Of a stretch of DNA of 64,000 nucleotides, positions 43,794-64,000 are shown one piece after another. Below the pieces are notes generated by a model. That model saw only the letters and a program-made list of their open reading frames with translations. It was not told the origin of the DNA and did no database searches. The position numbers were made by a program, and so were the translations under genes. Location of the stretch: positions 124,001 through 188,000 of the forward strand of contig NZ_FRFC01000001.1 of NCBI RefSeq assembly GCF_900143675.1. Reading direction: 5' to 3'. This stretch comes from Candidatus Nitrosotalea sinensis. GTDB taxonomy: Archaea > Thermoproteota > Nitrososphaeria > Nitrososphaerales > Nitrosopumilaceae. Position 1 is the first letter of the stretch. The number at the start of each line of letters is the position of its first letter.

Positions 43794-44051
43794 TCATTTC
43801 CTGTATACTTTTTTTCTATGTTCAAATCGAAGAAGATAGAGAATTGCTCCATCATATGCGTAAATTAATCTATATGGCTTGACATAAACAGTTCTTTCTC
43901 CTTTCAAGTTGTATCTTAATGGTTTTCCCAACTCTGGACATTCAACCAAGTTTTGGATTTGTTTTTGTAATGTACCTTTTAACTTGTTATCTTTAATTTT
44001 TGTAACTTCTTTTTTGAATTTATCGGACCATACTATTTGCTGGATTACCAT
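43794..44051 (-). CDS. RelE-family toxin
   Basis: 85 residues. Typical RelE elements: IVWSDKFKKEVTKI, GKPLRYNLKGERTVYVKPYR and the C-terminal LRFEHRKKVY with its conserved arginine/histidine/tyrosine residues. RelE enzymes cut mRNA in the ribosomal A site. The start codon overlaps the antitoxin gene by 7 bases, the usual coupled arrangement. The partner is AbrB-like rather than RelB-like, which is less usual. Confidence 0.87.
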   Translation of the reverse strand: MVIQQIVWSDKFKKEVTKIKDNKLKGTLQKQIQNLVECPELGKPLRYNLKGERTVYVKPYRLIYAYDGAILYLLRFEHRKKVYRK

Positions 44052-44317
44052 TTGGCAAATTCCGTAAAGAATTTGGATGTTGTAGACTTGCCACCTTTAT
44101 TGTTTTTAATCTCATCCCATGCCTCATTGATTGATTGTAGTGTCATGATATCATCATGGCTTAGATTCTGATCTATTTTTTTGAGGACTATTAGACCTCT
44201 CTTTTCTGTTATTGTAAATATATTACCATTTTTTATATCCAGTTTTTTGCGTACCCTCTTTGGTATTACTATTTGACCTTTGCTGCTTACTGTAGTAAAC
44301 ATCATATCATTAGACAT
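44045..44317 (-). CDS. AbrB/SpoVT-like antitoxin
   Basis: 90 residues from the ATG at 44317; the frame is open to a TTG at 44338, but a TATA-like GATAAATAAT (44340-44349) puts transcription start near 44317. The N-terminal swapped-hairpin DNA-binding domain is clear (FTTVSSKGQIVIPKRVRKKL). The C-terminal half (QSINEAWDEIKNNKGGKST) would wrap the RelE toxin. It likely represses its own operon together with the toxin. Confidence 0.85.
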   Translation of the reverse strand: MSNDMMFTTVSSKGQIVIPKRVRKKLDIKNGNIFTITEKRGLIVLKKIDQNLSHDDIMTLQSINEAWDEIKNNKGGKSTTSKFFTEFAKW

Positions 44318-44435
44318 AAAGTAAGATTGTCTTACCAATTATTTATCTGTTGATACATACAACAGTACAAACCATGTTTTGAAGAATCGTTTTCTATGTG
44401 ATTCTGATCACTTTGCTTTTAGAACTAGGACATAT

Positions 44436-46638: not shown

Positions 46639-47175
46639 TTAATTGCTGAGGTATCCAAGCTCTTTTAGTTTGGACAGGATCATTTCAAGGCATTCTTCCT
46701 TGGAATGTTTTTCTGTATCTAAGACAAGTTCTGGGTTTTGCGGTTCCTCATACGGGGATTGTAATCCAGTCATGTTTTGTATCTCTCCTGCCATTGCTTT
46801 TTTGTACAATCCCTTTGGATCACGCTTGATGCACTCTTCTATGGAAGCTTTGGTATAAACTTCGACAAAGTTTGGAATTTCTTTTCTTGCAAATTTTCTG
46901 ATTTCTCGATACGGTGATATCAATGGGACTATTGTAATTATTCCATTTTTTACCAACAACTTTGCAATTTCGATTACTCGTCTATTGTGTTCTTTCCTAT
47001 CTTCAGGCGAGAAACCAAGGTCTTTAGATAATGTTTTTCGTATTTCATCTCCGTCTAAGATTATAGTAGACATATTTTTTTTCTGGAAATAATCTTTTAG
47101 CATCATGGATAGCGTAGTCTTGCCAGAAGCCGGGATTCCTGTTATCCAGATTGCTGCTGCCTGTATATTTTCCAA
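46639..47175 (-). CDS. cysC: Adenylylsulfate (APS) kinase
   Basis: 178 residues from a TTG start. Walker A is GIPASGKT (residues 13-20), with ILDGDEIRKTLSKDLGFSPE, DRKEHNRRVIEIAKLL and PLISPYREIRKFAR, all standard APS-kinase signatures. It makes PAPS, the sulfate donor of sulfotransferases. It starts 1 base before the rmlA stop in a sugar-nucleotide operon rather than near sulfate-assimilation genes. A sulfotransferase is encoded 14 kb away (60729). ATP sulfurylase is not in the window. The context argues for sulfated glycan synthesis. Confidence 0.9.
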   Translation of the reverse strand: MENIQAAAIWITGIPASGKTTLSMMLKDYFQKKNMSTIILDGDEIRKTLSKDLGFSPEDRKEHNRRVIEIAKLLVKNGIITIVPLISPYREIRKFARKEIPNFVEVYTKASIEECIKRDPKGLYKKAMAGEIQNMTGLQSPYEEPQNPELVLDTEKHSKEECLEMILSKLKELGYLSN

Positions 47176-47176
47176 G

Positions 47177-48238
47177 CTACAGCCTTACCTGAGATCTCTC
47201 ACCCAAGAGAAACTGGTGCTTCTTTAGATGGTGGTTAGTAATTTCGGATGCATGTGCAACTATGCTATCTACAATGGTGATCTTGGCATCTATCTTACAG
47301 TCTGCCATGACTATAGAATTTTCAATATCGCACTGTTTTATGGAACAGTTGTTGTCAATTGATACATGAGGTCCTATCCTTGCAGCAGGGCCAATGTTAC
47401 AGTTCTCACCTATTATGACAGGACCTGTGATAAACGAGTCTCTTGATATGTTTGTGTTTTTTCCAATAGCAATGTTTCCCCGTATTTGGGTCTCCTTGTC
47501 TATACGGAACTGGTTCTGTGTTCCTATAGTATCCAGAACCAACTGGTTTGCGTGTAGGATATCTTCAGGAGTACCAGTATCTTTCCACCAGCCTGTTACT
47601 ATATCATATTCTACTGTATTTCCTTTTTCCATTAAAAGCTGTAATGCCTCAGTAATTTCCAGCTCTCCCCTCCAGGATGGCTTGAGAACATCAATAATGT
47701 CGAATATTTTCGGAGTAAGAAAGTAGACTCCAATTACTGCCAGGTTTGATGGTGGGTTTTTTGGCTTTTCCATTATCTTTTTTATTTTTTTACCATCAAG
47801 CTCTGCTACACCAAATCTTGATGGATCATCTACTTCACATAATAACATCATGGCATCTGCAGAGGATGCTTGGAATTTTTTTGTATAATCTACCAATCCT
47901 TTCCGTAGTATGTTATCTCCAAGATACACTACAAATCGATCATTTCCGATAAAATCCTTGCATAATTTTATTGCATGCGAGATTCCAGCTGGCTTGTCCT
48001 GGTAGATATAGTTGATATTTACCCCAAATTTTTTTCCATCACCATAAAAGTCCTTTACCTTCTGTGGGTAGACATCACCAATTATGATTCCAATATCTGT
48101 AATTCCAGCATCCTTGAAATCCTCAAGTGCATACTGTGACATTGGTTTGTTTCCTATTGGAAGAAGCTGTTTTGGACCAGCATGTGTAAGCGGTCTCAGT
48201 CTTGTACCATGACCGCCATGAAGTATGATTCCCTTCAT
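47177..48238 (-). CDS. rmlA: Glucose-1-phosphate thymidylyltransferase, long form
   Basis: 353 residues. The nucleotidyltransferase signature GGHGTRLRPLTHAGPKQLLP is at the N-terminus, with VYLGDNIL and the C-terminal left-handed beta-helix (GPVIIGENCNIGPAARIGPH). The long C-terminus is typical of archaeal RmlA2-like forms. It makes dTDP-glucose from dTTP and glucose-1-phosphate, step 1 to dTDP-L-rhamnose. rmlB, C and D follow nearby on the same strand, which supports dTDP over UDP. Confidence 0.9.
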   Translation of the reverse strand: MKGIILHGGHGTRLRPLTHAGPKQLLPIGNKPMSQYALEDFKDAGITDIGIIIGDVYPQKVKDFYGDGKKFGVNINYIYQDKPAGISHAIKLCKDFIGNDRFVVYLGDNILRKGLVDYTKKFQASSADAMMLLCEVDDPSRFGVAELDGKKIKKIMEKPKNPPSNLAVIGVYFLTPKIFDIIDVLKPSWRGELEITEALQLLMEKGNTVEYDIVTGWWKDTGTPEDILHANQLVLDTIGTQNQFRIDKETQIRGNIAIGKNTNISRDSFITGPVIIGENCNIGPAARIGPHVSIDNNCSIKQCDIENSIVMADCKIDAKITIVDSIVAHASEITNHHLKKHQFLLGERSQVRL

Positions 48239-48269
48239 TTTCGATCCTTGTTATTAGGTGCGGTATATT

Positions 48270-49157
48270 TCAATTTGATCCAGTTTTTATTTCACATATG
48301 AAGTGATCTATCCCCTCTTCCACTGAGAGAGGTTTTACTTTGAGGATTTGAGTTGCCTTTGAGACATCCAAGGAAGAGTCCTTGGGTCTTTTTGCAATCC
48401 AGTTCATGTCATTTATACTTGCAGGTTTTAACAGATTCTTCTCAAGGTCTAGTTTCTGGGCTACAAGGGTTGCCATATCAAATCGTGATATCCTTGTTGC
48501 ACCTGCAAGATGAATCACACCAAGTATTTTTCTTGTTGATATTTCTATCAGCATTTGACTAAGATTTGGGACGTACGTTGGGGAGGTATACTGATCAGTT
48601 ATAATTGTAATTTCTTTTTTTGCCGTCAGGTTCTCTGCAACAAATAGTGGAAAACTCTTCTTTGTAGGATGCATTCCAAACGGAGTGCTTGTTCGTGCAA
48701 TACACCAGGATGATGTCATGTCTTGTACCGCCAATTCGCCGTGATATTTTGAATATCCATAGTAATCAACGGGGTTTGGCATGTCGGATTCTTTTTTCAT
48801 TCCTTTTTTTCCATCAAATACATAATCAGTTGATACATAGACAAAAAAAGAATCATGTCTTGCAGCTTGTTTTGCCAGGGTTTGGGTAGCTTTTGCGTTT
48901 ATTTTCAATGCCAATTCTTTTTCTTTTTCGCAAAGATCAACATTTGTCATTGCTGCCAAGTGTATGATTACATCAGGCTTGATGTTGTCTACAACTTGGA
49001 TTATGTTGTCATTATTTACAAGGTCAAGCTGGACTGGGGTGCCTTTGCTAGGTTTTGATTGGCCATAACACGAATATACTTGATGTTCTGATTTTGCCAA
49101 GTCTTGAACGACCTGGCTCCCAACCAGTCCTGCTGAACCAGTAATAAGAAATTTCAT
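48270..49157 (-). CDS. rmlD: dTDP-4-dehydrorhamnose reductase
   Basis: 295 residues from the ATG at 49157, which leaves a 2-base gap to rmlB; the longer frame to 49178 would overlap rmlB. NADPH motif LITGSAGLVGSQV, VSTDYVFDGKKGMKKE, and catalytic YYGYSKYHGE (Tyr-x3-Lys). It completes dTDP-L-rhamnose synthesis. The other three rml enzymes are in the same run. Confidence 0.9.
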   Translation of the reverse strand: MKFLITGSAGLVGSQVVQDLAKSEHQVYSCYGQSKPSKGTPVQLDLVNNDNIIQVVDNIKPDVIIHLAAMTNVDLCEKEKELALKINAKATQTLAKQAARHDSFFVYVSTDYVFDGKKGMKKESDMPNPVDYYGYSKYHGELAVQDMTSSWCIARTSTPFGMHPTKKSFPLFVAENLTAKKEITIITDQYTSPTYVPNLSQMLIEISTRKILGVIHLAGATRISRFDMATLVAQKLDLEKNLLKPASINDMNWIAKRPKDSSLDVSKATQILKVKPLSVEEGIDHFICEIKTGSN

Positions 49158-49159
49158 TT

Positions 49160-50158
49160 TTACCAGTTTACAGTCCACGGTTGTGGATGAAGTGTCTTTT
49201 CATTTGCTAGAGGCTCCCACCACTGTGGATTGTTTTGATACCAAGAAACTGTCTCTTGTAAAGCTTGTTCAAATTCGTATCGTGGTTTCCAACCTGTTGC
49301 TTTTTGTATCTTAGAGCAATCAATCGAGTATCGCTTGTCATGACCTGGCCTGTCTCCTACTTTTTCTATAATATCTAGAGGCTTGCCCATTATCTTGAGA
49401 ATTTTTTCTACAATGACCTTGTTTGTAATTTCATTCCAGGATGTTATGTTATACACCTCTCCTGACTTTCCTTTTTCAATCAGGGATTCAATGGCTTGAA
49501 CATGGTCTAGGACATAGATCCAGCTTCGTATCTGGTAGCCTCCATCATATAGTGGAATCTTGAGGTTTCTGGATGCCCGGATTATTGTTTTAGGTATTAG
49601 CTTTTCCGGAAACTGGTATGGCCCGAAATTGTTTGTGCATCTTGTTGTGATGCATTTTATTCCGTATGTTCTGTGATATGATTCCACTAGAAGGTCTGCC
49701 GATGCCTTTGTAGCTGAATAGGGATTACTTGGTTTTAAGATATCAGATTCATCAAAGGATTTTTTGTTTTCTGCATCTCCGTAAATTTCGTCTGTGGATA
49801 CATGGATGAATAATTTATCATGTTTTCTTGTAGCTTCTAAAATAGAATATGTCCCAAACACATTTGTCTCTATGAATGGTTTTGGATTTGATATACTCCT
49901 GTCAACATGAGTCTCCGCTGCAAAATTTATTATGATATCGCTTTCCTTGGCAAGAATGGATATTGTTTCCAAGTTTTTAATATCATCTTTTATAAAATGA
50001 TAATTTTTATTTTTTATAATTTCTTTCAGATTATTGATGTTTGAACCAATTGTCAGATTATCGAGATTTGTTACTATATCATTTGGTTTTGTTTGTAGAT
50101 GATTTTTGATAAATGTGCTGCCAATGAATCCTGCCCCTCCGCAAACTAGTAGTCTCAC
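49160..50158 (-). CDS. rmlB: dTDP-glucose 4,6-dehydratase
   Basis: 332 residues from a GTG start. NAD motif VCGGAGFIGSTFIKNHL, NFAAETHVDRSISNP, VSTDEIYGDAENK and NPYSATKASADLLVE with catalytic Tyr/Lys. These are RmlB signatures, including the Asp-Glu pair after the Thr in STDE. It converts dTDP-glucose to the 4-keto-6-deoxy sugar. The end carries DRPGHDKRYSIDCSK, typical of RmlB. Confidence 0.93.
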   Translation of the reverse strand: MRLLVCGGAGFIGSTFIKNHLQTKPNDIVTNLDNLTIGSNINNLKEIIKNKNYHFIKDDIKNLETISILAKESDIIINFAAETHVDRSISNPKPFIETNVFGTYSILEATRKHDKLFIHVSTDEIYGDAENKKSFDESDILKPSNPYSATKASADLLVESYHRTYGIKCITTRCTNNFGPYQFPEKLIPKTIIRASRNLKIPLYDGGYQIRSWIYVLDHVQAIESLIEKGKSGEVYNITSWNEITNKVIVEKILKIMGKPLDIIEKVGDRPGHDKRYSIDCSKIQKATGWKPRYEFEQALQETVSWYQNNPQWWEPLANEKTLHPQPWTVNW

Positions 50159-50201
50159 GCCTTGAAGATGTCAAGATTGTTATTTATTTTGATCTGGCTT
50201 A

Positions 50202-50759
50202 TTATCGATGTACAAAATTGTTGTCTGCGTTTTTCAATAAAGGTAGTTCAAGGTCTTTTTGTATCATGACTGGTTTGTCAGTAGGCCACTTGATGCATAC
50301 ATCAGGATCATTCCATAAAATTCCCCGCTCATTTTCTGGGGAATATTCAGTGTTAACCTTGTAAATTACATCTGCCTTGTCACTTGTCACATAAAATCCA
50401 TGCGCAAAGCCCTCAGGGACATAGAGCATTTTATGATTTTTGTCAGAGAGTATTTCACTTACCCATTTTCCAAAAGTGGGCGAGTTTTTACGTATATCTA
50501 CTGCAACATCAAGTATCTCTCCTGTAATTGCCATAACCAGTTTTGCTTGTGCTTTTGGGTTTTTTTGATAATGCAATCCTCTCAGGACGCCTTTGGTTGA
50601 ATGAGAATAATTGTCTTGAACAAATCTTGTGTTCACTCCATTGGATCTAAAGATTGATTCCTTGAAGGTTTCCATGAAATAACCTCTTTCATCTTCAAAC
50701 GATGAAGCCTCTACAAGTATGACATCTGGGATTTTTAATTTTGTAAACTTGAATGGCAT
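50202..50759 (-). CDS. rmlC: dTDP-4-dehydrorhamnose 3,5-epimerase
   Basis: 185 residues, cupin fold. RmlC signatures: SFEDERGYFMETFKES, FVQDNYSHSTKGVLRGLHYQ (catalytic His in LRGLHYQ), LDVAVDIRKNSPTFGKW and MLYVPEGFAHGFYV. It inverts C3 and C5 of the keto sugar. It lies upstream of rmlB, separated by 43 bases, in the same operon. Confidence 0.94.
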   Translation of the reverse strand: MPFKFTKLKIPDVILVEASSFEDERGYFMETFKESIFRSNGVNTRFVQDNYSHSTKGVLRGLHYQKNPKAQAKLVMAITGEILDVAVDIRKNSPTFGKWVSEILSDKNHKMLYVPEGFAHGFYVTSDKADVIYKVNTEYSPENERGILWNDPDVCIKWPTDKPVMIQKDLELPLLKNADNNFVHR

Positions 50760-51910: not shown

Positions 51911-53185
51911 ATGAAATCTGTTCCAACAGAAATAATCAAGATAATTAAAAAGAGATTTGAGGATTATGATGATTTTGTACCAGGTAAAACGAAGATCAGA
52001 TTGGTGGAACCTTCATTTGGCGCAGATGAAGTAATTGAATCACTTGACTCACTTTTAACTACCAAAGTTACCATGGGAGAAAAAGTTAAGAAATTTGAAC
52101 AATTATTTTCAAAGTATCTTCATGTTAATTTTTCAGCAATGGTTAATTCTGGTTCATCAGCAAATTTAGTTGCGTTATCAGCTTTAACAAATCCAACATA
52201 CTCAAAAAGACTACCCAAAAATAGTGAAGTAATTACTCCAGCCGTCACATGGGTTACAACGGTTTACCCTCTCACAAATTTGAATTTAAAGCCTAAATTT
52301 GTAGATATCAGTCTAGAAAATTTTTGCATAGATCCAGATAAGTTAGAAGAAGCTGTAACAAAGAACACATCTCTACTTCTACCCGTTCATTTATTGGGAA
52401 ATGTTTGTGATATGGGGCGGATAACAGAAATCGCTAGAAAAAAAAATCTACATGTAATGGAAGATTGTTGTGAAGCTCATGGTGCGGAATTTAAAGGTAA
52501 AAAAGTGGGAACTTTTGGTGACATAGGAACTTTTAGTTTCTTTTTATCACACCATATAACGACAATAGAAGGAGGAATGACAGTAACTAATAACAAGGAG
52601 ATATACGAGTTAACCAAGGCACTTAGAGCATTTGGATGGATACGCGATTTACGAAATAAGACGGCATTAAGTAAAAAATATCCGTCAATAGATCCTATGT
52701 ATTTATTTGTAAATTTAGGATATAATTTGCGGCCTACAGAAATTCAAGGAGCATTTGGAATTCACCAGATTTCAAAGTTAGATAAATTTATCAAAATACG
52801 AAAAGAAAATGCAAAATATTGGACAAAGAGATTTGCAACTTATGAAGATTATTTCATACTTACTAAGGATGATCCTAGAACACATCAAGTATGTTTTTGT
52901 TATCCTATGACGATAAGAAATGACGCACCCTTCAACAGAGAGATGTTGGTTAAATATCTTAAGAAGCACAACATAGAAACAAGACCCATAATGTCTGGAA
53001 ATTTACTAGAACAGCCGTCTATCAAGTATATACCTCACTACGCAAGAGGTACGCTTAACAATTCAAAAATAGCCATGCGTAATTCTTTCTTTTTTGGAAA
53101 TCATCACAGAATGGGAAGAGACCAACGAGAATATATTGTAGATACCATAGCACAGTTTATAGAACGAAAACTGTGGAAACGGTAG
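51911..53185 (+). CDS. RfbH/ColD-like PLP-dependent sugar 3-dehydratase (DegT family)
   Basis: 424 residues, fold-type I. PLP features: NSGSSANLVAL (phosphate cup), D185 in EDCCEAHGA. The position of the Schiff-base Lys (normally S-F-x-x-x-K) is His214 in FSFFLSHHITTIEGGM. Replacement by His is the hallmark of RfbH and ColD, which remove the C3 hydroxyl instead of transaminating. The region aligned with RfbH's [2Fe-2S] cysteines (RDLRNKTALSKKY here) has none, so it is more like the ferredoxin-independent ColD. It precedes an Fcl/ColC-like gene. The sugar is inferred. Confidence 0.82.
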   Translation: MKSVPTEIIKIIKKRFEDYDDFVPGKTKIRLVEPSFGADEVIESLDSLLTTKVTMGEKVKKFEQLFSKYLHVNFSAMVNSGSSANLVALSALTNPTYSKRLPKNSEVITPAVTWVTTVYPLTNLNLKPKFVDISLENFCIDPDKLEEAVTKNTSLLLPVHLLGNVCDMGRITEIARKKNLHVMEDCCEAHGAEFKGKKVGTFGDIGTFSFFLSHHITTIEGGMTVTNNKEIYELTKALRAFGWIRDLRNKTALSKKYPSIDPMYLFVNLGYNLRPTEIQGAFGIHQISKLDKFIKIRKENAKYWTKRFATYEDYFILTKDDPRTHQVCFCYPMTIRNDAPFNREMLVKYLKKHNIETRPIMSGNLLEQPSIKYIPHYARGTLNNSKIAMRNSFFFGNHHRMGRDQREYIVDTIAQFIERKLWKR

Positions 53186-53244
53186 AGAAGTTTTTAGATG
53201 TCTCAAAATTATTATTGGTGTAACAGATTAACCATTGACATAGA

Positions 53245-54198
53245 ATGAATCTGATAGGAAAGAAAATAGTTGTAACTGGAGGTTCAGGATTTCTTGGTTC
53301 ACAGATAGTTAAGATGCTTCAAGAAAAAGGGATTTCAGATATAATCGTGCCTCGTTCAATTGATTGCGATTTAAGAATTCCGGAGAATTGTTCTAAAATA
53401 ACCAAGGGTGCAGATATTGTGTTTCATACTGCTGGAAATGTTGGAGGTATAGGATACAATAAGGAACACCCTGCCTCAGTGTTCTATGATAATATTATGA
53501 TGGACACCTTGATGATAGAAGAGAGTAGAAAGAACAAGGTAGAAAAATTTATTGCTATAGGTACAGTTTGCAGTTATCCGAAGTTTGTGGATGTACCGTT
53601 TTCTGAAGAACAGATTTGGAGTGGATATCCAGAGGAAACTAACGCTTCTTATGGATTATCTAAAAAAATGATGCTGGTACAATCTGAATCTTATCGTCAG
53701 GAATATAATTTCAATTCCATAGTCTTAGTTCAGACTAACCTATATGGGCCAGGAGATAATTTTGATCCCAATACATCTCATGTAATACCAGCCCTCATCA
53801 AAAAGATACATGATGCAAAAAACTCTAATATTTCTGAGATAGAAATTTGGGGAGACGGAACTCCTTCCAGAGATTTTTTGTATGTTGATGATGCCGCCAG
53901 AGCTGCCATATTAGCTGCTGAAAGATATGAAAAAAGTGAACCAATTAACATAGGCAGTGGAAATGAAGTCACCATAAAAGAATTGGCGGAAATTCTGATA
54001 AAATTAATGAATGTCAAATCGCAAGTTGTATGGAATAAACAAAAACCAAACGGTCAGCCTCGTCGTTGTCTAAGCATAGAAAAAGCAAGAAGAGAAATCG
54101 GATTTGAACCACAGGTAAGACTGGAAGAAGGCTTGAAAAGAACTATAGAATGGTATGAATTACTACAAGATAGTTCAGGAAAAACCAGCATCAATTAG
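53245..54198 (+). CDS. GDP-fucose synthase/ColC-like epimerase-reductase
   Basis: 317 residues, extended SDR fold. Signatures: VVTGGSGFLGSQIV, GGIGYNKEHPASVFYDNIMM, IGTVCSYPK with the family Ser/Cys pair, NASYGLSKKMMLVQ (Tyr-x3-Lys) and NLYGPGDNFDPNTSHVIPAL. These are the GDP-L-fucose synthase group, to which colitose epimerase/reductase ColC also belongs. It follows the ColD-like gene by 59 bases on the same strand, so GDP-colitose or another GDP-3,6-dideoxyhexose is plausible. No gmd is in the window. It overlaps the Nudix gene at the 3' end by 24 bases. Confidence 0.85.
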   Translation: MNLIGKKIVVTGGSGFLGSQIVKMLQEKGISDIIVPRSIDCDLRIPENCSKITKGADIVFHTAGNVGGIGYNKEHPASVFYDNIMMDTLMIEESRKNKVEKFIAIGTVCSYPKFVDVPFSEEQIWSGYPEETNASYGLSKKMMLVQSESYRQEYNFNSIVLVQTNLYGPGDNFDPNTSHVIPALIKKIHDAKNSNISEIEIWGDGTPSRDFLYVDDAARAAILAAERYEKSEPINIGSGNEVTIKELAEILIKLMNVKSQVVWNKQKPNGQPRRCLSIEKARREIGFEPQVRLEEGLKRTIEWYELLQDSSGKTSIN

Positions 54199-54594
54199 CA
54201 TTTTTTTAAAAAATGGTGCAGTCTCTTTTGGTATATTCTTAAAGAACTTACCGGTTTTGGCTTGATAGTCATAGTGTATTTTTCCTTTTTTCGTTATTAC
54301 AAGAAAACAATGAGTAACATCATGTCTGTTTGGATAGATTTTCTCATAAAATCCAACACTTGTCTTGATTTCCACATCTATACCCAATTCCTCTCTACCT
54401 ATTCTTTTAACAGCAGCTTCTAGTTTTTCTCCTCTCCTCATGATTCCTCCAGGCAGACAAAGTTTTCCCTTATAGGGAGAGATAGATCGTTTGACTAGTA
54501 AAAATTTCCCATTTTTTATTAAAATTAAGTCTACGCAACAAAATGGAAAATATGACTGGAACTTGTGAAATAAAGTATCATCAGGTCTTTGCAT
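54175..54594 (-). CDS. Nudix hydrolase, GDP-mannose mannosyl hydrolase-like
   Basis: 139 residues. The Nudix box is PGGIMRRGEKLEAAVKRIGR then EELGIDV: the first Glu and the EE pair are kept, but the RE dyad reads RI. I recall that GDP-mannose mannosyl hydrolases (Gmm/NudD) carry a similarly altered box. FHKFQSYFPFCCVDLILIKN at the start fits that subgroup as well. It may adjust GDP-sugar levels. It is convergent with the ColC-like gene. Confidence 0.72.
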   Translation of the reverse strand: MQRPDDTLFHKFQSYFPFCCVDLILIKNGKFLLVKRSISPYKGKLCLPGGIMRRGEKLEAAVKRIGREELGIDVEIKTSVGFYEKIYPNRHDVTHCFLVITKKGKIHYDYQAKTGKFFKNIPKETAPFFKKMLIDAGFS

Positions 54595-59492: not shown

Positions 59493-59550
59493 TTGCCCTT
59501 TGACTGTATTAATATTAGAGAAACTTCAAGATTCAAAATGAAGAGTGTTT

Positions 59551-60591
59551 ATGATAAAAGAACAAAAACATAACGAAAATCAAGTTAGGAAATACAAGGA
59601 GTTTCTTGATACCTTATATCGTGAGGTTCTCCTGAGACCCCCTGACAAAGAGGGTCTTGAACATTACATAACCTCACTTGTGGAAAAACGTATGACGTTG
59701 AGAGAAGTAACAGAATCAATCATAGAATCAGATGAGAGTAAGAATATAGCATACTTTAGTCATTATTCAGCACAATTTTGGAATCATTTGGATGAAATCA
59801 AATCTTATCTCAATAGACTTTCTACAGGCGATGAAAATACTAACTGGATGCAAGACATTCCAAAACGCTTTAAACAATACATACCATTTCACAAGGTGCT
59901 TGTTGTAGGATGCGGTAATGGTTGGGTAGAGCGCACGCTATTTGATCTTGGAATAGCCAAGCATTTTGATGCTTTTGATATTTCAGAGGAATATTTGACA
60001 ACAGCAAAAGAACAAAAAGGAAATAGACCCATCAATTATTTTATTTCTGACATAAATGAGATGAAGAATATTTCAAATGCAGAATATGACGCTGTTTTTA
60101 ATGTAGCAATCCTACATCACGCCGAAAATATAGAATATGCATTAAAACGACTCACCGAGGTTTTGAAACCTAATGGTCTCATGTTCAATTGGGAATATGT
60201 AGGACCTTCAAGGAACCAATATTCTGAAGAACATGTAAAAAGGATGCAAGAGATAATGGAATCCTTACCAGTTAAATTTAGATCAACCCATTCATTACGT
60301 CCTCCAATAGAGAATTTTCGTGTAGAGCCGACAGAAGCCATTCATTCGGATTTGATACGACCCCTATTTTCAAAATATTTTGATATAATTTATGAAAGAG
60401 ATTTGAATGGCGGGATAGCATATCAAATACTTTGGAATAATATTGATGAGTTTAAAAAAGGAGATAAAGATGCTGTAGAACATCTAGAATTTTTAATAAA
60501 TAAAGATAATGAATATACGCAATTAAAAAAGGTGCCAGTTCTTTTTTGGTATTCAGTTGGGAAACCAAAAAATGAATTGCACAATAAATAA
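59551..60591 (+). CDS. SAM-dependent methyltransferase with N-terminal DUF4214-like module
   Basis: 346 residues from the ATG at 59551 (a GTG two codons earlier is also open). Residues 10-65 match a DUF4214-type module (YREVLLRPPDKEGLEHYITS). Residues 105-215 are a class I methyltransferase with motif I VLVVGCGNGW and FDAFDISEEYLTTAKE. The remaining tail is unrecognised. It likely methylates a sugar, or caps the chain. The same DUF4214-like module closes the adjacent sulfotransferase. Confidence 0.83.
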   Translation: MIKEQKHNENQVRKYKEFLDTLYREVLLRPPDKEGLEHYITSLVEKRMTLREVTESIIESDESKNIAYFSHYSAQFWNHLDEIKSYLNRLSTGDENTNWMQDIPKRFKQYIPFHKVLVVGCGNGWVERTLFDLGIAKHFDAFDISEEYLTTAKEQKGNRPINYFISDINEMKNISNAEYDAVFNVAILHHAENIEYALKRLTEVLKPNGLMFNWEYVGPSRNQYSEEHVKRMQEIMESLPVKFRSTHSLRPPIENFRVEPTEAIHSDLIRPLFSKYFDIIYERDLNGGIAYQILWNNIDEFKKGDKDAVEHLEFLINKDNEYTQLKKVPVLFWYSVGKPKNELHNK

Positions 60592-60636
60592 AGAAATCAA
60601 TTTGAGGTAGAATTCACCAAGGATAATAAATTGAAC

Positions 60637-60655
60637 TTCTCTTTCTGAAAGAGAA
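60637..60655. repeat. Hairpin between methyltransferase and sulfotransferase genes
   Basis: TTCTCTTT-CTG-AAAGAGAA, a perfect 8-bp stem 46 bases after the methyltransferase stop. It may be a processing or regulatory element. There is no U-run directly after it. Confidence 0.4.
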
Positions 60656-60696
60656 TTGGTTCAGAATAGAATTTCAAACACATACTAACTGTGTTG

Positions 60697-60704
60697 TATA
60701 AATA
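60697..60704 (+). promoter_or_regulatory. TATA box for the sulfotransferase gene
   Basis: TATAAATA ends 25 bases before the TTG at 60729, so the gene can be transcribed on its own and leaderless, independent of the upstream glycosyltransferase run. Confidence 0.5.
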
Positions 60705-60728
60705 GAGTGAAACCTAAAATCAAATAAT

Positions 60729-62297
60729 TTGAGTAGAACAAAGTTTCCAGTTAAATTGGAACAAAATGATGTTTTATATTTTCTTCATATACCAAAAACT
60801 GCCGGCACAACATTTACATCTGTTCTTGATAGTTTTTTTGATTATCAATCAATATTTCCTGAACAGGTATACCGAAAATTGATATTAGATCTTCCTGAGG
60901 ATTTTACAAAGTATAAGCTGATACGTGGTCATTTCGGTCACACAATATACAAAATAATTCCACAAAATATTCTTTATCTAACCATGTTACGTGATCCTAT
61001 ACAAAGAACAATCTCATACTATGATCACATGAAGCTTGCACCTACAACTAACAATTGGGTACATGAAAACTTTCTTTCAGAAATAGAAACTTCGGATTCT
61101 GCATTACAAGATCCCAAAAAAATTCCAGTGTTTACTAATTACCAAATTAGACACCTAGCTGTTGATTTAGACATAAGATCTATTGCACAATACTATAAAA
61201 TGAATAAAAGAGCTTTTTTCTTTGACACAGTAGAGGAATTTATACATCCAGATATTTCTGATGAGTTATTATTACAAACCGCCAAACAAAGACTCTTAGA
61301 ATTTTCATTTTTTGGATTAGTTGAAAGATTTGAGGAATCATTATTTTTGTTGTATTATACTTTTGGGTGGAAACCAATAAGATCTATTTGGAATTTAATG
61401 GTAGCACCACGTAAGACCAGCATGCACGACATAAGTGAACATACTATGAAAATAATCAAGGAATATACAAAGTTAGATTATGAATTATATGAATATGCTA
61501 AAGAATTGTTTGAACAGCGCCTTTTTCAAATGATGGATGATCTTAAAGAAAGATATTACAAGCCTAATCTAGATAAGTTATCATTTAGGGAAATGATGTA
61601 TGTGCTCTTAGAAAAACATTATGAGGAACACTTTGACTATCACTATGAAAACAGTACCAGTTCTATCAATTTTGATTTTAGTCAAAAAATGTTTGGAACC
61701 GGATGGTTTAGAAGAGAAATTAATGATGCGGCAAAAAAATTTTACAGATGGACCGGACCAACAACGATATCAACAATTGATTTACCTCTTTCTCCAGAAA
61801 GTGATCTCAGAATTCAATTACGTATTATCGGACAAGCGTCTATAGAAATTCGTGATAGTTTAAGACTTTTGATTAATGGAGTGTCAATGGAAAGTTTATT
61901 TCTGGTCCAAAATATCCATAATCCTATTTATCCTGATATCACACCATTAATTATAGAGACAATAGTGTCTAAGGAATCACTGAAAAATGATAAGAAATTT
62001 ACTCAGTTGACATTGATGATTAAAGATACACTAAATCTCCGATCCTTGAATCCTGGTTATGAAAATAGAGAGGTAGGAATTGCATTAGATAAGATCACTA
62101 TTATTCCCATCGTTTCAGCAGAATATGAAAAAAATGTTAAAGGTAGAATCTCAAGATATTATACAGAATACCTGAGACGAAAACCTGATTTTGAGGGTTT
62201 GGAATATTATTTTGCACAAATCATGAACGGAATAATCAAATTAGAAGATATGCCACAAATACTACAGGATTCATCAGAATTTCGAAATATTAGATAA
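60729..62297 (+). CDS. Sulfotransferase fused to a beta-sandwich and DUF4214-like module
   Basis: 522 residues from a TTG start. Residues 15-280 are a sulfotransferase: FLHIPKTAGTTF (5'-phosphosulfate loop, residues 19-30) and TMLRDPIQRTISYYDHM (3'-phosphate site, R88 and S96). Residues about 310-440 form a beta-sandwich with FGTGWFRRE and FYRWTGPTT, a pattern seen in glycan-acting proteins. The last 50 residues are DUF4214-like (YTEYLRRKPDFEGLEYYFAQ). It would move sulfate from PAPS to a glycan; cysC at 46639 can supply PAPS. Acceptor unknown. Confidence 0.82.
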   Translation: MSRTKFPVKLEQNDVLYFLHIPKTAGTTFTSVLDSFFDYQSIFPEQVYRKLILDLPEDFTKYKLIRGHFGHTIYKIIPQNILYLTMLRDPIQRTISYYDHMKLAPTTNNWVHENFLSEIETSDSALQDPKKIPVFTNYQIRHLAVDLDIRSIAQYYKMNKRAFFFDTVEEFIHPDISDELLLQTAKQRLLEFSFFGLVERFEESLFLLYYTFGWKPIRSIWNLMVAPRKTSMHDISEHTMKIIKEYTKLDYELYEYAKELFEQRLFQMMDDLKERYYKPNLDKLSFREMMYVLLEKHYEEHFDYHYENSTSSINFDFSQKMFGTGWFRREINDAAKKFYRWTGPTTISTIDLPLSPESDLRIQLRIIGQASIEIRDSLRLLINGVSMESLFLVQNIHNPIYPDITPLIIETIVSKESLKNDKKFTQLTLMIKDTLNLRSLNPGYENREVGIALDKITIIPIVSAEYEKNVKGRISRYYTEYLRRKPDFEGLEYYFAQIMNGIIKLEDMPQILQDSSEFRNIR

Positions 62298-63515: not shown

Positions 63516-64000
63516 TTGATATATAATTTTGCAATATCAGATCTTAAAATAAGATATAGAAATTCCATATTAGGATTCTTTTGGACATTTTTAGAACCTT
63601 TGTTAATACTTGCAACGTTATACATCATATTTACCAATTTATTTAATTCCAAGATAGAACATTTCCCCCTATACATTCTTGTGGGAATAATAATGTGGAA
63701 TATGTTTGCAAGAGGTACTCAGACTGGATTAGGCAGTATTCTCACCAGAAGTAGCATACTAACACAGATTTATCTTCCTAGAGAAATTCCTTCACTAAGC
63801 TCCGCACTTACAGCATTATTCATGTTTTGTTTTGAAATGATGGCATTTGCTGTTTTCCTCATAGCGTTTCAATTCATTCCACCAATAACTGCTCTTCTTC
63901 TTCCATTCGTAGTATGTCTTGAATTTATTTTAATTGTGGGCATATCTCTTCCTCTCTCTGTTTTGAATGTACGCTATAGAGACATACAATTTATTTGGAC
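63516..64000 (+). CDS. ABC-2 type polysaccharide exporter permease (Wzm/TagG-like), right part missing
   Basis: Translated by hand; 161 codons are visible and the frame runs off the window. The TTG at 63516 is the best start I see; the frame is open upstream only to a TAG at about 63469. Features: ISDLKIRYRNSILGFFWTFL near the start, typical of Wzm/TagG permeases, and at least three membrane helices, then VLNVRYRDIQFIW. Such permeases with a Wzt ATPase export finished lipid-linked glycans. The ATPase gene should follow beyond the edge. Confidence 0.75.
   Translation, partial: MIYNFAISDLKIRYRNSILGFFWTFLEPLLILATLYIIFTNLFNSKIEHFPLYILVGIIMWNMFARGTQTGLGSILTRSSILTQIYLPREIPSLSSALTALFMFCFEMMAFAVFLIAFQFIPPITALLLPFVVCLEFILIVGISLPLSVLNVRYRDIQFIW

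Follow-up and report, generated by a model that had tools for sequence, protein, structure and literature searches.

Genes for a putative GDP-mannose-derived 3,6-dideoxyhexose pathway in the archaeon Candidatus Nitrosotalea sinensis

Colitose is a rare surface sugar made by bacteria such as Escherichia coli O55, and 3,6-dideoxyhexoses form the immunodominant tips of bacterial O-antigens. Could an archaeon of the ammonia-oxidizer lineage make a sugar of this kind? The surface glycans of these archaea are nearly unknown: one surface hexasaccharide has been described in Nitrososphaera viennensis (PMC12153357), and the S-layer glycans of N. maritimus have been visualised without their chemistry (PMC11153153). 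A 2020 survey of 12,939 genomes reported the L-colitose and L-fucose pathways as absent from Thaumarchaeota/TACK (PMC7725333), and beyond it we found no relevant paper on dideoxyhexoses, or on deoxysugars derived from GDP-mannose, in these archaea. The question is raised by three adjacent genes of Candidatus Nitrosotalea sinensis (table 1). They lie in a stretch of 64,000 nucleotides (the window, C1:124001-188000) of a 1.6 Mb genome that is 99.9% complete, and an initial annotation had read them as the tail of a colitose-type pathway. Our favoured reading, with a probability of roughly 0.6, is that they encode late steps in the making of a 3,6-dideoxyhexose from GDP-mannose.

Table 1. Genes of the putative dideoxyhexose locus (positions in the window).
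Feature	Position	Strand	Remarks
ColD-type PLP/PMP-dependent NDP-4-keto-6-deoxyhexose 3-dehydratase (predicted)	51911..53185	+	424 aa; His214 putative catalytic base; Fe-S cysteine motif absent
Fcl/ColC-family NDP-4-keto-6-deoxyhexose epimerase/reductase (predicted)	53245..54198	+	317 aa; T107, C109, Y136, K140, H179 as in GDP-fucose synthase
Nudix hydrolase, loosely Gmm-like (predicted)	54175..54594	-	139 aa; homologues adjoin gmd in related genomes

As judged from the sequence, these genes are clear in their families, their catalytic residues and their neighbourhood. The ColD-type and Fcl-like genes are co-directional and separated by 59 bases. The Nudix gene converges on the Fcl-like gene from the opposite strand, their ends overlapping by 24 bases. 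Hence, the adjacency noted by the initial annotation stands, but the three genes are not one operon. The GC content drops from 40% to 32% at the sugar cluster, which is consistent with its horizontal acquisition, GC being no proof of it. A complete dTDP-L-rhamnose set (rmlA, rmlD, rmlB and rmlC) with an adjoining APS kinase occupies positions 46639-50759, and its RmlB is encoded 1.8 kb from the ColD-type gene. Methyltransferase and sulfotransferase-like proteins, both with a DUF4214 domain, are encoded at 59545-62297. A Wzm/Wzt-like ABC polysaccharide exporter pair spans 63516-64000 and continues beyond the window end (L016:13517-14998); the Wzt-like protein is the ATPase, and the Wzm-like permease was called from its sequence and position only. 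A small neighbouring pair at 43794-44338 resembles a RelE/ParE-type toxin and an AbrB-type antitoxin, as judged by eye only.

Alignments and phylogeny make a C3-dehydratase function very probable for the first protein. Its best match among all solved chains (phmmer) is E. coli ColD (2gms, E = 5.9e-80), followed by RfbH/E1 (3bcx, 7e-65) and by aminotransferases (about 1e-42 and weaker); ColD beats RfbH by 50 bits. His214 aligns with H188 of ColD, the residue changed to N in 3b8x (H188N) and to K in 2r0t, and the window protein has no lysine at the Schiff-base position. Both S213 and H214 are invariant across 33 aligned relatives. When aligned to 3bcx, the window protein has nothing that corresponds to the RfbH stretch 'DCYCAPGCDNTC'; it reads GWIRDL there, to be compared with GWTRNL in ColD. 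There is no cysteine between residues 188 and 327. In a tree of 97 rows the protein falls inside a ColD-type group of 83 rows that includes E. coli ColD (99% SH-aLRT), and the split between ColD-type and RfbH-type sequences has a support of 97-99%. The RfbH-type sequences carry PAHHITMGEGG, mostly with 3-4 cysteines after it, and the ColD-type sequences carry SHHI-T-EGG with 0-2 cysteines. Alignment, cysteines and tree thus agree with the ColD-like PLP enzyme, with His214 and without the RfbH cysteines, that the initial annotation had described. We took the defining features of the ColD type from a review, according to which ColD acts on GDP-4-keto-6-deoxymannose, has its PMP regenerated from glutamate and needs no external reductase (PMC8987622). 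The one other clear DegT-family protein of the genome (on C3) has a lysine at the Schiff-base site (AAKVMTSGEGG).

The second protein matches GDP-fucose synthase structures at 3.7e-61. The residues listed in table 1, together with W202 and R209, occupy positions identical to the E. coli Fcl numbering, with Thr in place of Ser107, in agreement with the proposed epimerase-reductase. The tree places the protein in an archaeal group with sequences from G043, G227, G206, G128 (genomes of the same order, described below) and Nitrosopelagicus. Both the ColC clade (24 rows, 100%) and the E. coli Fcl group leave it out, and we accordingly rejected ColC membership and classify the protein as a predicted Fcl/ColC-family enzyme that is not ColC. 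Because it lies outside the bacterial ColC clade, we can only infer L-colitose as the product. Curated models score both proteins below their cut-offs: the ColD-type protein is best on RfbH (340 bits, cut-off 423), and the Fcl-like protein reaches 278 bits on GDP-L-fucose synthase (cut-off 500). Such scores are usual for colitose enzymes, since ColD and ColC of E. coli O55, whose sequences we obtained via a Glaciecola relative, reach 263 and 304 bits on the same models. The Nudix protein (PF00293) belongs to the family proposed initially and has Gmm as its top curated match, but at 38.4 bits against a cut-off of 146 it would be only loosely Gmm-like. It is not demonstrably Gmm, though its homologues travel with Gmd: a gene 57% identical lies beside Gmd and Fcl in G206, and one 46% identical lies beside gmd in G087, where a DegT protein of the lysine-bearing type accompanies them.

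Where would the substrate come from? The initial annotation had noted that gmd, manC and manB are missing from the window, and had named a genome without gmd as a refutation of its reading. The gene is indeed not in the window, but the genome search found two homologues 1.1 and 5.1 kb beyond the window end (C1:189116 and C1:193102), with 355 and 381 bits against a curated cut-off of 415, so that this refutation fails. The catalytic motif of Gmd2 (C1:193096-194142) is intact (SSSEMFG...YAVAK), and the gene lies 16 kb from the ColD-type gene. Gmd2 scores 374 bits against a solved Gmd (2z1m) and 112 bits against the GDP-heptose dehydratase 7us5; being far nearer to Gmd, it disfavours a variant of the pathway that yields a 3,6-dideoxyheptose. 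Gmd1 (C1:189125-190138; L017:1226-2239) reads YAIAR, with Arg for the catalytic Lys, alone among the 37 Gmd sequences examined, and is possibly inactive or altered in function. The window genome lacks a LegB-like gene, the partner found in several relatives, which leaves only Gmd or RmlB as the source of the 4-keto sugar; Gmd2 would be the natural supplier. RmlB is accompanied by its own RmlC and RmlD. For the supply of GDP-mannose, a PGI/PMI-like gene (C1:195263-196276, 187 bits, cut-off 214) lies about 18 kb downstream of the ColD-type gene. The genome holds nucleotidyltransferase and PGM/PMM genes as general candidates for ManC and ManB, none of them assignable to mannose, and none of its proteins exceeds any curated cut-off for ManC. 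The genome search found no fucosyl/colitosyltransferase-type gene of family GT11.

We compared the locus with a sample of 300 genomes of the same order that includes the window genome (G000). Ten of them match the ColD-type query at E <= 1e-70, and the matches are ColD-type in G000, G043 (two copies), G227, G180, G089 and G023. Co-occurrence with gmd is weak (2/6 genomes with a ColD-type gene against 38/294 without, p = 0.18). The gene order in G043 (C9) and G227 is LegB-like SDR, ColD, Fcl (79% identical) and a glycosyltransferase. In Nitrosopelagicus (L059), ColD and Fcl are near neighbours and a LegB-like SDR lies alongside. We detected no gmd in G227 (96% complete) or in Nitrosopelagicus (about 0.9 Mb). 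In G128, G111 and G282, a LegB-like SDR accompanies Fcl without ColD. The LegB-like SDRs keep the T-S-E and YxxxK motifs and score 238-272 bits against the LegB cut-off of 475; their own substrate may likewise be GDP-mannose. They are conserved partners of Fcl whether or not ColD is present (L036:8609-9634, L035:13919-14917, L190:7699-8733 and L059). G206 has no ColD match, and its Fcl gene converges on homologues of the Nudix and Gmd2 genes (Fcl 65%, Nudix 57% and Gmd2 66% identical). This clustering ties the Fcl-like and Nudix proteins of the window to Gmd and GDP-mannose chemistry. In the simplest reading of these loci, Fcl receives a 4-keto-6-deoxy sugar from LegB-like SDRs as well as from Gmd, be it the same sugar or not. 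In other genomes of the order (loci L139, L143, L146, L147, L151 and L165), gmd adjoins a DegT aminotransferase-like gene whose nearer relative is the lysine-bearing paralogue and not ColD, which hints at sugars of the GDP-perosamine type.

Beyond the order, we scanned 84,980 species genomes. Genes for ColD-type, Gmd and Fcl/ColC proteins occur in many bacteria and in the archaea DeMMO2_7, Thorarchaeota and Methanobrevibacter, and this pathway type is therefore not unique to the window genome. DeMMO2_7 has a Gmd-Fcl-ColD triad, and Halorubrum carries Gmd and a ColD-type gene. Gmd lies within 4 kb in 46 of the 79 ColD-type loci sampled and in none of the 12 RfbH-type loci (p = 9e-5, an optimistic value as the sequences are related). 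An Fcl/ColC gene is found near the ColD-type gene in 50 of these 79 loci.

These observations can be assembled into a route whose nucleotide specificity, stereochemistry and acceptor we infer. Gmd2 would convert GDP-mannose to GDP-4-keto-6-deoxymannose. The ColD-type enzyme would then remove the C3 hydroxyl, with His214 as the catalytic base and PMP regenerated from glutamate; a GDP-linked substrate is probable for it. The Fcl-type enzyme would epimerise C5 and reduce C4, and its product would be GDP-L-colitose or one of its near stereoisomers. Finally, glycosyltransferases of the cluster could place the sugar on a surface polysaccharide, exported by the adjoining Wzm/Wzt-like ABC pair, or on a surface protein. 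The colitose-like route of the initial annotation is thus supported in part, by a clear ColD-type protein, an adjacent Fcl-type gene and a gmd in the genome, and a GDP-linked 3,6-dideoxyhexose is its best reading. Its specific sugar is unproven. The Fcl-like protein stands apart from ColC, the nearest ColD-Fcl homologues are coupled to a LegB-like SDR and not to Gmd, and the Fcl homologue that sits with gmd in G206, where ColD is lacking, would be expected to make GDP-L-fucose. We give L-colitose itself an even chance as the end product.

Other readings of the locus have to be weighed. It is very improbable that the ColD-type protein is instead an aminotransferase or a dehydrase of CDP-sugars akin to RfbH/E1. 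RfbH is its best curated model, as noted above, but it is also the first match of E. coli ColD. An AlphaFold2 model built from the 33 relatives (pLDDT 94) has E1 and ColD as its sole nearest solved folds in Foldseek, followed by GDP-perosamine synthase. E1 (3bcx) ranks slightly above ColD, and as Foldseek cannot separate the two here, the decision falls to the cysteines and the tree, both of which favour ColD. We rejected an aminotransferase because of His214, the nearest lysines (195, 197, 198, 229 and 236) being off the Schiff-base position. We also rejected a CDP route to paratose or abequose, given the missing cysteines and the lack of RfbG neighbours; we saw no CDP-glucose dehydratase among the surrounding sugar genes.

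A different product is harder to dismiss, though we consider it unlikely: Gmd2 and the Fcl-like enzyme might make ordinary GDP-L-fucose, as relatives without ColD would be expected to, with ColD as a separate or dual-use branch; a single epimerase-reductase would then serve for fucose, alone or alongside a dideoxy sugar. The arrangement in G206, where Gmd, Nudix and Fcl occur without ColD, fits this, as do the position of the Fcl-like protein outside the ColC clade, its intact epimerase pair (C109/H179) and its being the sole Fcl-type gene found in the genome. Against it, ColD adjoins Fcl in the window genome, in G043 (C9) and in G227, and lies near it in Nitrosopelagicus; together with the 50 of 79 loci of the wide scan, this points to a joint pathway. 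We regard as quite improbable that ColD and Fcl act on another nucleotide sugar, either the product of a LegB-like SDR (e.g. a UDP- or GDP-N-acetylhexosamine) or the dTDP-4-keto-6-deoxyglucose of RmlB. The LegB-ColD-Fcl groups of G043, G227 and Nitrosopelagicus, the LegB-like SDRs that accompany Fcl alone in G128, G111 and G282, the failure to detect gmd in G227 and Nitrosopelagicus, and the proximity of RmlB in the window all speak for such a substrate. However, the window genome has Gmd and no LegB-like gene, the LegB-like SDRs, with their low LegB scores, may also act on GDP-mannose, RmlB has RmlC and RmlD to serve, and Fcl homologues pair with Gmd too. The GDP-mannose-derived 3,6-dideoxyhexose pathway thus remains our preferred reading.

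The kinds of enzymes involved are already known, from bacteria and some other archaea; here they are assembled in a lineage surveyed as lacking them. The genome carries genes for such a route, contrary to the reported absence from TACK (PMC7725333). This gene set offers a specific prediction testable by mass spectrometry. Phage evasion is a natural hypothesis for the role of the sugar, from the immunodominance of 3,6-dideoxyhexoses in bacterial O-antigens. More speculatively, and in our opinion with the odds clearly against it, a surface polysaccharide of Nitrososphaerota could contain a 3,6-dideoxyhexose, with the dissimilar 4,6-dehydratases Gmd and LegB-like SDR being interchangeable suppliers of one ColD-Fcl pair in this order. 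If true, the LegB-like family would be an unrecognised GDP-mannose 4,6-dehydratase.

How does the locus compare with known systems? The ColD-type protein is 37-39% identical to E. coli ColD (2gms) over nearly the full length and has the same fold; they share the His for Lys, the absence of the Fe-S cysteine motif, the GW-x-R motif and an adjoining Fcl-type gene. Unlike E. coli ColD, it belongs to an archaeal branch of the ColD-type group, has an N-terminal extension of about 25 residues, lacks gmd as an immediate neighbour (it is 16 kb off) and has its nearest homologues beside a LegB-like dehydratase. With RfbH/E1 it shares the fold and the His replacing Lys, but neither the [2Fe-2S] cysteines nor RfbF/RfbG beside its gene. 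The Nudix protein resembles Gmm, its weak best match, in having another residue for the Glu of the RE motif; unlike Gmm, it retains the EE pair in its Nudix box. The Fcl-like protein is 32% identical to O55 ColC and 35% identical to E. coli Fcl and keeps their catalytic residues, whereas its archaeal group differs from both in having either Gmd or a LegB-like SDR as partner.
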